Below, in pieces: positions 44,106 through 56,627 of a stretch of 64,000 nt of DNA. Source of the stretch: Eubacterium sp. (GTDB lineage: Bacteria > Bacillota > Clostridia > Oscillospirales > Acutalibacteraceae); contig JAFLRY010000003.1 of the NCBI GenBank assembly GCA_022511205.1, forward strand, positions 18,577 through 82,576, given 5' to 3'. A program made the translations under genes and the position numbers. Position 1 is the first letter of the stretch. The number at the start of each line of letters is the position of its first letter. Below the pieces are notes generated by a model. That model had not been told where the DNA came from, searched no databases, and was given only the letters and a program-made list of their open reading frames with translations.

Positions 44106-44294
44106 GTGGCACTGTGCGAGTGCGCGTGCCGCATAAATAAAAGGGGGGTTCAGGGGGATTTGAGCGTTTTGCGCTCATTCCCCCTGAATTGTTTTCTCTG
44201 ATTACTCTCTTTTGCAACACAAAAGAGAGTAATGCCCACCCCGGCAGGGGTAAAATATGAAAAGCATAATTATATTTGCCCACCGCGGCAGCGG
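44106..44294 (+). repeat. Structured dispersed repeat, copy A
   Basis: One of three related elements (others at 50142 and 56401). Five hairpins in order: H1 GGCAC/GTGCC (44108-44130); H2 CAGGGGGA/TCCCCCTG around TGAGCG/CGCTCA; H3 TTACTCTCTTTTG with its complement and a 5-nt loop; H4 CCCC-GGCA-GGGG; H5 CCGC-GGCA-GCGG (44283-44294). It follows gatB by 20 bp. The rest of the gap to spoVAD is AT-rich and ends in the hairpin at 44372. Confidence 0.85.
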
Positions 44295-44371: not shown

Positions 44372-44405
44372 ACACCTCGGATAAAATAATCCCGAGGTGT
44401 TTTTT
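44372..44405 (+). terminator. Terminator whose arm carries the spoVAD SD
   Basis: ACACCTCGG (44372-44380) pairs perfectly with CCGAGGTGT (44392-44400) and is followed by TTTTT. GAGGTG, the spoVAD RBS, is inside the second arm, and the T run forms the spacer to the GTG start. Confidence 0.75.
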
Positions 44406-50141: not shown

Positions 50142-50323
50142 GCGGCACAGTGCGCGGCGTGCGCGTGCCGCAATGATAAAGGGGGTTTTCAGGGGGACTT
50201 GAGCGCATTGCGCTCACTCCCCCTGAATTGTTTTCTCTGATTACTCTCTTTTGCAATACAAAAGAGAGTAATGCCCACCCGGCAGGGGTAAAATATAATT
50301 ATGCTTGCTTTCCGCGGCAGCGG
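50142..50323 (+). repeat. Structured dispersed repeat, copy B
   Basis: The closest relative of copy A. H1 is GCGGCAC/GTGCCGC, longer than in A. H2 CAGGGGGA/TCCCCCTG and H3 are identical to A apart from loops. H4 reads CCC-GGCA-GGG and H5 CCGC-GGCA-GCGG (50312-50323). It starts 25 bp after the SCP2 gene with no ordinary terminator between them. The remaining part of the gap to the GH3 gene is AT-rich with no recognised feature. Confidence 0.85.
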
Positions 50324-50449
50324 AGTATTCCTGCTTCCTGAATAAGGAAGCTTTTATTATTTTAAAAGTGTTTTCATATTTAACACTTGTATAAAACTCC
50401 CATTTAATCTATAATAAAAATACAAAACTATTACATATGGGGTAATATT

Positions 50450-53298: not shown

Positions 53299-54549
53299 AT
53301 GAAAAAGATTATCAGCTTATCAATTGCCCTTGTAATGCTCTTTAGTATTGCGGTGGGGCAGAATGTGTCCGCCTTTGCGCTGGATACAGATTCAGAATGG
53401 AATGAAGATTTCGATTATGACTTTGGCTTCGACGATGATTTTGATTTCGATTTCGATTTTGACTTTGACTTTGACTTCGATGACGATTTCGACTTTGATG
53501 ACGATTTCGACTTTGATGATGATTTCGATTTTGATTTCGATTTCGACGAAGATTACGAAGTGTTCACAAGCGGTGATTTCGATTATATCCTGCTTGATGA
53601 CGGCACGGCATCAATAGTAGGCTATTACGGAGAGGACGAAGAGCTTGTCATTCCCGAAGAATTAGATGGCTACAGCGTTACGGCAATAGATGATCTTGCG
53701 TTTCTGTGGTGTGAAAGCTTGGAGCGCGTAGTGATAGGCGGAAATATTGATCATATCGGATTAATGGTATTCAGCGGTTGCGCTTTCTTAAGCGAGATCG
53801 TTGTTGATGAGAGTAACGATTTTTATTCCTCCGAGGACGGAGTGTTGTTTGACAAGGAGAAAACGGAACTCATTATGTATCCGATTGGCAATGAAAGAGA
53901 AAACTACACTGTTCCGGACGGTGTTTTGAGCATTTCAGATTGCGCATTTGCAACAAGCTTATATTTAACGAGTGTTGTTTTGCCGGAAAGTGTGGAGAAT
54001 ATCGGCAACTTGGCGTTTGCGTTTTGTATGAGCATGGAGAGCATATATATTATGAATGCCAATTGCGTTATTGATGAGGACGAATGGACCATATACGAGG
54101 AAACCACTATTTACGGCTACGATGATTCCACTGCCCACAAGTATGCGCAGACGAATGACAGAAGCTTCGTTGCACTTGACGAAGAAACTGACGAGCCCAC
54201 CACCCAAGAGCCTGCCGATGAGCCTACCACTCAAGAACCCGAGAGTGAGCCCACTACCCAAGAACCCGAAAATGAACCAACGAGTGAATCATCAAAAGAT
54301 GAACCCGCAACAGAAGCTCCGACAGCTGAGAAACCAAGTCAAGAGCCTACAAGCGAATCAACTACAGAAGTAACCGCAGAGGAAACTGCAAACGCGCAGA
54401 CAACTGCGAAGCCGAGTACGCCGGAAAAAGATGACAGCGCGAAGTCGCCCTCAACCGGAGCAACGGGTAAAGGCTTGATTGCCTTTGCGGCAATTGCTCT
54501 TGCGGGCGGAGCAGTTATACTTGCTAAGAAAAAGGAACAGGATCAATAA
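53299..54549 (+). CDS. Cell-wall-anchored LRR_5/BspA-like protein with Asp-Phe repeat
   Basis: A 416-residue surface protein. A signal peptide (about 1-29) is followed by an almost pure Asp/Phe repeat (about 37-83), a leucine-rich BspA-like domain (about 90-290, e.g. YSVTAIDDLAFLWCESLERVVI), a Thr/Pro/Glu repeat linker (EPTTQEP units, 296-375) and a C-terminal sorting signal. SPSTG replaces LPXTG, then comes a hydrophobic helix and KKKEQDQ. S-P-x-T-G is accepted by clostridial class B-type sortases such as C. difficile SrtB. GGAGG precedes the ATG. An XRE regulator is divergent. Confidence 0.88.
   Translation: MKKIISLSIALVMLFSIAVGQNVSAFALDTDSEWNEDFDYDFGFDDDFDFDFDFDFDFDFDDDFDFDDDFDFDDDFDFDFDFDEDYEVFTSGDFDYILLDDGTASIVGYYGEDEELVIPEELDGYSVTAIDDLAFLWCESLERVVIGGNIDHIGLMVFSGCAFLSEIVVDESNDFYSSEDGVLFDKEKTELIMYPIGNERENYTVPDGVLSISDCAFATSLYLTSVVLPESVENIGNLAFAFCMSMESIYIMNANCVIDEDEWTIYEETTIYGYDDSTAHKYAQTNDRSFVALDEETDEPTTQEPADEPTTQEPESEPTTQEPENEPTSESSKDEPATEAPTAEKPSQEPTSESTTEVTAEETANAQTTAKPSTPEKDDSAKSPSTGATGKGLIAFAAIALAGGAVILAKKKEQDQ
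53407..53547 (+). repeat. In-frame GAT-TTY tandem repeat
   Basis: Imperfect hexamer repeats of GATTTC/GATTTT/GACTTT, interrupted by GAC/GAT doublets, encode the Asp-Phe stretch. Third-position variation shows the repeat is not freshly expanded. Confidence 0.85.
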
Positions 54550-56341: not shown

Positions 56342-56347
56342 TGCCGC

Positions 56348-56366
56348 CTGCGGCACTGTGCCGCAG
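56348..56366. repeat. Perfect GC-rich dyad preceding copy C
   Basis: CTGCGGCAC, one T, and its exact complement (19 bp). It matches the H1 arm of the dispersed element in sequence (GCGGCAC/GTGCCGC) and may be a remnant of a second copy. Confidence 0.65.
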
Positions 56367-56400
56367 AGAACAATATTTGAGGTTTTTATTCTCGCATCCT

Positions 56401-56627
56401 CGGCGCAGTGCGCAATGTGCGCGCGCCGAAAAGCGAAAGGGGATTTTCAAGGGGACTTGAGCGACTTGCGCTCACTCCCCTTGAATTATTTTCTCTGGTC
56501 ACTCTCTTTTGCAATACAAAAGAGAGTAACGCCCCGCGCCGGCAGGCGCAAATATAAAGAATAAAACATATTGACCTGCACCGAATGGCGCAAAAGCCAT
56601 TTTAAAATATCACCGCCGCGCAGCGGC
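56401..56627 (+). repeat. Structured dispersed repeat, copy C
   Basis: A diverged and longer copy. H1 is CGGCGC/GCGCCG, H2 CAAGGGGA/TCCCCTTG, H3 as in A but with one mismatch, H4 GCGCC-GGCA-GGCGC, H5 GCCGC-GCA-GCGGC (56615-56627). An extra stem AATGGC/GCCATT lies at 56584-56601. Changes in H1, H2 and H4 keep base pairing. The rest of the gap to the Cys-rich gene is AT-rich without recognised features. Confidence 0.82.

Follow-up and report, generated by a model that had tools for sequence, protein, structure and literature searches.

MITE-like elements with a predicted RNA triplex pseudoknot, perhaps a 3'-end cap, in the genomes of diverse bacteria

The window, that is the whole stretch of 64,000 nucleotides that was analysed, carries three related stretches on its + strand, copies A (44106-44294), B (50142-50323) and C (56401-56627), and over a core of 135 nt copies B and C are 87% and 77% identical to A, respectively. 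As the original prediction had it, all three have the same orientation, and each lies directly behind the last gene of a + strand unit. The parts of the element follow one another in the order H1, H2, a pyrimidine tract, H3, the letters CGCC and then one to four small GC hairpins, for example GCCAC-GGCA-GTGGC or GCGCC-GGCA-GGCGC, each of which is followed by AAA and an AT spacer (Table 1). The compensatory changes that had been described were found as written: H1 reads GGCAC/GTGCC in A and B and GGCGC/GCGCC in C, H2 has the form CAGGGGGA/TCCCCCTG in A and B versus CAAGGGGA/TCCCCTTG in C, and H4 reads CCCC/GGGG in A versus GCGCC/GGCGC in C. Across the copies of the family the tip of H2 is TGAGCG...CGCTCA or TGAGCG...GCGA. 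The five hairpins said to be shared are present, except that H5 of C is degenerate and the tail varies between copies. No U-run follows any stem of A, B or C in the sequence, and it was correctly noted that no intrinsic terminator lies between the upstream gene and the element at any of the three; ordinary terminators do, however, lie behind the element at A (44372-44405) and at B (50333-50359). The window also holds an Asp/Phe-rich coding repeat (53384-53575, copies 12 or 18 nt apart) in an ORF of 416 aa (53299-54549) and, at positions 1-89, two direct repeats of 40 nt that are 88% identical and 49 apart.

Table 1. Parts of copies A, B and C, with their positions in the window
Feature	Position	Strand	Basis
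Copy A, H1	44106..44132	+	sequence
Copy A, H2, TTCAGGGGGA...TCCCCCTGAA, TGAGCG...CGCTCA tip	44149..44188	+	sequence, covariation
Copy A, S1 5' strand, TTG pairs with CAA of H3 loop	44188..44191	+	sequence, scanner
Copy A, L1 third strand, TTTTCTCT-G	44192..44200	+	sequence, scanner
Copy A, H3 (= S2), ATTACTCTCTTTTG CAACA CAAAAGAGAGTAAT; purine strand is the triplex partner (predicted)	44201..44233	+	sequence, scanner, R2 covariance model
Copy A, H4, CCCC-GGCA-GGGG	44239..44250	+	sequence
Copy A, tail hairpin H5, CCGC-GGCA-GCGG	44283..44294	+	sequence
Copy B, H1	50142..50171	+	sequence
Copy B, H2	50188..50227	+	sequence
Copy B, S1 5' strand, ATTG pairs with loop CAAT	50227..50230	+	sequence, scanner
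Copy B, L1 third strand, TTTTCTCT-G	50231..50239	+	sequence, scanner
Copy B, H3 (= S2)	50240..50272	+	sequence, scanner, R2 covariance model
Copy B, H4	50278..50288	+	sequence
Copy B, tail hairpin H5	50312..50323	+	sequence
Copy C, likely remnant of head-to-head partner arm, H1 only	56342..56368	-	by eye; compared with partner arms in the window genome
Copy C, H1	56401..56428	+	sequence
Copy C, H2	56446..56485	+	sequence
Copy C, L1 third strand, TTTTCTCT-G; preceding S1 strand weak, TTA vs CAA	56489..56497	+	sequence, scanner
Copy C, H3 (= S2), one C·A mismatch	56498..56530	+	sequence, scanner, R2 covariance model
Copy C, H4, GCGCC-GGCA-GGCGC AAA	56536..56552	+	sequence

The hairpins are real, but their earlier description missed a pseudoknot and a third-strand match around H3. 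The 3-5 nt that precede the pyrimidine tract are complementary to the loop of H3 (pairing S1), and the tract itself, UUUUCUCU, matches the purine strand of H3, AAAAGAGA, when both are read in parallel (third strand L1, with the stem of H3 as S2). This geometry is predicted to be that of an H-type pseudoknot with a major-groove triple helix. Among 97 distinct sites from different phyla, the mean number of complementary nt in S1 was 4.34, versus 3.18 (sd 0.11, maximum 3.54 of 1000) when the loops were re-dealt among sites and 3.33 (maximum 3.63 of 300) when the upstream letters were shuffled; an S1 of at least 4 bp was present at 69 of the 97 sites, against 33 on average (maximum 44) with re-dealt loops and 38 (maximum 51) with shuffled upstream letters. 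In 30 distinct H3 types from the window genome (G000) and its genus, which were picked by the hairpin alone so that loop pairing was not imposed, TTG precedes the tract where the loop has CAA or UAA (16 types) and TCG where it has CGA or UGA (11 types), with zero cross-over; the three types outside this rule are copy C (TTA/CAA) and loci L081 and L084. The tract and the purine strand also vary as parallel pairs, including CUUUCUCU/GAAAGAGA, UUUUCUCU/AAAAGAGA, UUUUCUU/AAAAGAA, CUUUCUUU/GAAAGAAA and CUUUCUCC/GAAAGAGG. Departures from the third-strand match occur at the last step in the copies of genome G023, earlier and in greater number at locus L107, and at the first step at locus L004 (C opposite A). 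Where the match was not imposed, 82 candidates, false ones included, had on average 4.27 of 6 parallel matches versus 3.62 in the null (sd 0.08, maximum 3.90), and the 56 with purine strands that are not mirror-symmetric had 3.82 versus 3.12 (sd 0.10, maximum 3.43), with an antiparallel control of 3.25.

A scanner that needs an S2 of at least 10 bp, an S1 of at least 4 and at least 6 consecutive parallel matches found exactly A, B and C when both strands of the window were scanned, and none in 10 dinucleotide shuffles of it. In 887 kb of other loci it recovered 95 of the 125 pattern sites and picked up another 33, with one site in 60 shuffled loci (437 kb) and one in mirrored sequence; the scanner and the tests were designed after the sequences had been seen, and shuffles leave shared descent in. 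Since S1, S2 and the third-strand match are requirements of the scanner, the sites that it selects cannot test them, a limit that covers the 33 extra sites, the outward pairs, four two-armed elements, a pairing set of 64 sequences and a further list of sites, in place of which the 30 H3 types were used for S1. In the four two-armed elements (L205, L218, L238 and L246) the arms differ and each has its own third-strand match, the match being imposed by the scanner and the difference not. Among the 64 diverse sequences, scanner-selected and hence selected for S2 pairing, S2 was 97.8% paired and 12 of 12 S2 pairs had changes on both sides; in the same scanner-selected set S1 was 50% paired when columns were fixed, and its register shifts. 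The near-invariance of L1 (TTTCTTT) in the cross-phylum pattern arises because the pattern fixed L1. A small covariance model, R2, gave A, B and C scores of 51-62 bits in the window, with reverse-strand echoes at ~25 and the next match at 12.9. Taken over 72 distinct S2 stems, the non-Watson-Crick pairs in the orientation of the tract strand were G·T in 17 cases versus A·C in 2 (16 versus 1 without the one stem that adds to both, at least two of the 72 being false candidates), and the G·T pairs, most of which fall at two positions, are therefore not 17 independent events. This bias speaks for a folded single strand of the tract orientation, RNA or single-stranded DNA alike, and together with the covariation it upholds the earlier idea of selection on such a strand. 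Judged from the sequences, S1 and the third strand are very likely real constraints.

The original prediction spoke of a family of three copies, but the window genome (1.9 Mb in 74 contigs, 97% complete) has about 39 whole or partial places. Searches of this genome returned 69 blastn rows and 55 covariance-model rows, and by our own sorting about 39 of the latter are whole or partial copies, the 16 dropped rows being opposite-strand overlaps with a copy, which are echoes of the palindromic H3. Single arms of pairs are counted among these 39 places, as are pieces at contig ends, of which two may be the halves of one copy, and therefore the number of separate insertions is smaller. Many copies lie at contig ends; the assembly probably breaks inside the elements. 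In 16 copies from this genome, 17 of the 46 predicted pairs had at least one change on both sides. Some copies are head-to-head pairs in which ~30 nt separates the two H1 arms; such pairs were found in G000, G008 and G030, and their outer ends are the variable hairpin tails, while A and B are solo arms. G030 belongs to another family of the order, and in 20 of 20 loci fetched from it there were parts of a repeat of up to ~850 bp with inverted arms.

A strict location behind a same-strand gene was not supported in the genome at large: it applies to 7 of the 12 copies in G000 for which both flanking genes were called, two of these 12 being arms of one pair. Ten of the 12 lie between genes of the same direction, one between convergent and one between divergent genes. 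A further 18 copies sit at contig ends, where the gene on the tail side is the only one known, and in 14 of these it is directed towards the tail. A terminator-like hairpin was found within 330 nt behind 9 of 26 copies, starting 98-104 nt after S2 in five of the nine; this count, made without a control, leaves out the L021 row and one of the two hairpins of L022 as tail hairpins of the element, and it is no more than suggestive of insertion targeted to terminators in this genome. Several other observations were made at individual loci. A second repeated stretch, agcaataagaactggcag.ggtcaaaatttttga...ttttgggtaccgcaact, accompanies some G000 copies on the H1 side (L008 and L016), and the copy of L012 (contig C44 of G000) lies ~530 nt upstream of an rpsJ-like gene, with a sub-threshold match to the S10-Clostridia leader between them. 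In G008 (contig C4), an outward pair at L071 1307-1492, with 356 nt between its members, encloses an ORF of 61 aa resembling a ribbon-helix-helix regulator, and other copies in G008 and G011 adjoin ORFs resembling XRE-type HTH genes.

The nine closest relatives of the window genome, as judged by GatB, are 90-92% identical to it in that protein. The model was searched against six of them (all except G058, G061 and G065), with no match in five and one in G015. The junction of copy B was readable in eight of the nine, and in all eight the same two genes are present and the element is absent; most have a terminator-like hairpin, seen by eye, at this empty site, and G061 has unrelated extra sequence. 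Copy C was absent in six of six aligned relatives, with both neighbouring genes kept in G022 only, and at site A the gene order downstream of gatB is not conserved. The window family has traits of MITEs in that its many dispersed copies are non-coding and relatives have empty sites. For the family of G000 itself, neither a terminal inverted repeat nor a target duplication nor a mobilising enzyme came to light.

Evidence from Methylobacter marinus A45 bears on how such a knot may be carried. Thirteen knot-bearing copies align there as one unit with the terminal repeats AACTGATGTTACGCA...TGCGTAACATCAGT, one of them being interrupted by an IS near its right end. Perfect 5-bp target duplications flank 16 of 22 fetched Methylobacter elements (10 of 13 with the knot and 6 of 9 without it by the scanner), versus 2.8%, with a maximum of 19% among 2000, when the flanks were re-dealt; R2 sees a knot or an interrupted knot in L349 and L356 and, weakly, in L355. 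Six short Methylobacter elements have no knot. Three of these (L351-L353) share the ends of the others and are flanked by perfect duplications, and the knot therefore seems to be carried here as cargo by a DNA transposon derivative. It sits ~100 nt inside the terminal inverted repeat (TIR). Among 86 TIR-like sites in the Methylobacter genome G384 one long pair (1.9 kb) was seen, which is a copy broken by a nested IS, and in the part of these 86 that was inspected no transposase partner for the TIR was found, only the nested IS. At L348 704-2050 of this genome an IS of ~1.5 kb interrupts a knot-bearing MITE, and its transposase we take to be IS1380-like. In L349, L355 and L346 there are extra hairpins at recurring internal sites, inside the knot in L349 and L355, as if they were modules.

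It is highly probable that the family is mobile or borne by mobile DNA. The MITE-like alternative of the original prediction is favoured by the empty sites in relatives, the lineage-specific copy number and, in Methylobacter, the TIR and target duplications. The REP-like half of that alternative was not sustained. The Y1 transposase (PF01797) had no match in G000 and G030, the two genomes with most copies, and two weak matches in G023, which has 21 copies; we accordingly rejected REP/BIME membership, on the absence of Y1/RAYT from those two genomes. Retro-mobility was rejected on the absence of reverse transcriptase (PF00078) from G000, G008, G023 and G030, which are drafts 97-99% complete. 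Searches of 50,697 phage records and 72,556 plasmid records also gave no match to the window copies, and a phage or plasmid origin was rejected on this basis.

Members of Pseudomonadota, Bacteroidota, Selenomonadales and Fusobacteriota also have the fold. A scan of genome contigs for the H3 motif gave at least 120 stretches, and among the matches listed were Caballeronia, Lysobacter, Methylobacter, Mucilaginibacter, Chitinophaga, Selenomonadales, Oscillospiraceae, Lentisphaeria and Nitrospirae. In 20 genomes, each chosen for having a match and with up to 150 candidates scored per genome, R2 gave 1 to 110 matches per genome at E ≤ 1e-7, with ten or more in 10 of the 20, although some strong echoes may remain in these counts: 110 in Silvimonas terrae, 67 in Caballeronia glathei, 50 in Chitinophaga skermanii, 47 in a Selenomonas MAG, 42 in a Lysobacter sp., 15 in Methylobacter marinus and 10 in one Oscillospiraceae MAG. 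Counts at E ≤ 1e-3 were set aside because reverse-strand echoes of the palindromic S2 raise them (29 versus 15 in Methylobacter). Under strict filters and with 15 candidates each, 4 of 299 genomes of the window's phylum score, G000 included. A megaplasmid of Ilyobacter (Fusobacteriota) has seven matching places, and the one that was fetched fits the fold by the scanner, which imposes S1. The wider H3 pattern gave two stretches in viral contigs, and one proteobacterial knot had no match in E. coli.

None of the 125 pattern sites lies inside a gene called by our own simple gene caller, and the gene on the 3' side is convergent at 71 of 108 sites. Close knot pairs (<700 nt) in the wide loci point outward in 18 of 21 cases, with one inward and two the same way, and several of the 21 come from Caballeronia and so are related rather than independent. 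The same gene caller placed no gene inside the 18 outward pairs or 18 G030 elements. Where both flanks were called, outward pairs lie between convergent genes in 6 of 14 cases and between divergent genes in 1 of 14, and G030 elements in 7 of 17 and 2 of 17, respectively; among 174 background gaps of >150 nt, 32 are convergent and 43 divergent.

We propose that A, B and C each represent one arm of a mobile element, non-coding and MITE-like, that was amplified in this lineage and would settle between genes, rarely between divergent ones. What is conserved across phyla would be a single-stranded fold on the element's 3' side, the pseudoknot of S1, L1 and S2. Here L1 would fill the major groove of S2, forming 6-9 U•A-U and C•G-C triples, and a small GC hairpin and A's would often come next. 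Many elements would be inverted pairs in which each strand has a knot close to its 3' end, and others, such as those of Methylobacter, would carry one. We put the probability that these are MITE-like elements carrying an RNA triplex pseudoknot, perhaps serving as a 3'-end cap, at roughly 0.55. The acting molecule is probably RNA, although the data fit single-stranded DNA too. On the strength of the fold, the outward pairs and the bias towards gene ends, we tentatively suggest that the knot may cap or stabilise the 3' part of transcripts that enter the element from either side, in which case insertions would be harmless or useful. With similar reserve we speculate that the knot may represent a cross-phylum RNA family absent from Rfam, with a telomerase-like pseudoknot and an unusually long triple helix, which unrelated mobile DNA elements have spread to many places in each genome and in which a transcript of either strand would end in the knot, that is, a portable bidirectional RNA 3'-end cap.

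An alternative is that the fold serves as a single-stranded DNA handle for transposition by an HUH/Y1, RAYT-like or other enzyme and has no role as RNA. The knots that many genomes have close to the two outer ends of paired elements, the patchy and amplified distribution and the two weak Y1 matches in G023 would suit such a handle, and the G·T/A·C asymmetry fits it equally. We nevertheless consider it unlikely, in view of the absence of Y1 from G000 and G030 and of reverse transcriptase from the four drafts searched, the position of the Methylobacter knot well inside its TIR, the three knotless MITEs with perfect duplications and the frequency of solo copies. A double-stranded DNA site, whether a cruciform, H-DNA or a protein-binding palindrome like the gyrase or nucleoid sites of BIMEs, could account for the palindromic arms, the mirror repeat formed by L1 and S2 and the intergenic inverted pairs, but it is hard to reconcile with the G·T excess in the L1-strand orientation, with an S1 that needs a single strand and with mirror arms of only 7-8 nt, and is accordingly quite improbable.

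The location of A, B and C directly behind the last + strand gene had led to the proposal that they act in transcription termination or 3'-end processing of the upstream gene. This is very doubtful, since there is no U-run, ordinary terminators follow A and B, the empty B site of relatives has its own terminator-like hairpin (by eye) and the orientation to upstream genes is inconsistent; as termination elements, in particular, the copies were not borne out. We give as little credence to a trans-acting RNA of the TwoAYGGAY type that titrates CsrA. In 3 of the 37 wide loci scanned (L208, L222 and L233, from Psychromonas, Pseudomonas and a Halothiobacillaceae MAG), the TwoAYGGAY covariance model (RF01731) scored above gathering at a distance of 6-85 nt upstream of the knot, and CsrA binding has been proposed for this RNA (PMC4333381). 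However, CsrA (PF02599) had no match in G000, G023 and G030, and window-type copies are under the Rfam cut-offs and have no AYGGAY loops by eye.

Triple-helix pseudoknots are known to be rare, specialised folds, and a predicted one appears here at the conserved core of repeats from bacteria as distant from each other as Oscillospiraceae, Burkholderiales, Chitinophaga and Ilyobacter. Should the fold form in cells, one could test directly whether mobile repeats supply an RNA-stabilising end of their own, the TwoAYGGAY RNA would gain a possible 3' domain, and assembly breaks at the repeats would be explained.

A match to a known Rfam family had been named as grounds against the original prediction. 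No family reached gathering in the window, where matches overlapping the copies (E up to 10) were far below the cut-offs, and this includes TwoAYGGAY, for which window-type copies are under the gathering score; the same fold does, however, have TwoAYGGAY upstream of it in some proteobacteria. In the three loci with TwoAYGGAY the match ends before the knot, and the window copies do not match. TwoAYGGAY is listed for human gut, gamma-Proteobacteria and Clostridiales in PMC2864571. A match to Bp1_684 (RF02421) overlaps the outer end of a Caballeronia element at L157 6713-6820, covering only the 3' part of S2 and the region outside it. Bp1_684 is among the sRNA candidates detected by RT-PCR according to PMC3521395, and this is a weak sign of transcription. 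ERIC, Correia/NEMIS and RUP, as described in a review of MITEs (PMC2229807), resemble the present element in being small, non-coding, intergenic, multi-copy and foldable, the TIR and target duplication being a further likeness in Methylobacter, and the RNA structures of ERIC and MITEs are reported there to affect the mRNA of adjacent genes. They differ in being tabulated there for single genera or related groups, whereas the present fold occurs across phyla, and the word pseudoknot is absent from that review (PMC2229807), while a pseudoknot is predicted here.

In the open-access PMC literature we found no paper on the present fold, and the papers that matched five literal 12-13-mers had listed titles on animals, viruses and yeast. 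REP/BIME sequences are alike in their intergenic hairpins and inverted pairs, but G000 and G030 are without RAYT/Y1. Pneumococcal BOX and the bcr elements of Bacillus are further bacterial MITEs with structured RNA. In topology the predicted fold is like the triple-helix pseudoknots of telomerase RNA, the SAM-II and preQ1-II riboswitches and ENE elements, in which the pyrimidines of loop 1 occupy the major groove of stem 2 and run parallel to a purine strand. It differs from these in having no known ligand or enzyme, in its 6-9 predicted consecutive triples with C•G-C steps, and in being multi-copy and mobile.
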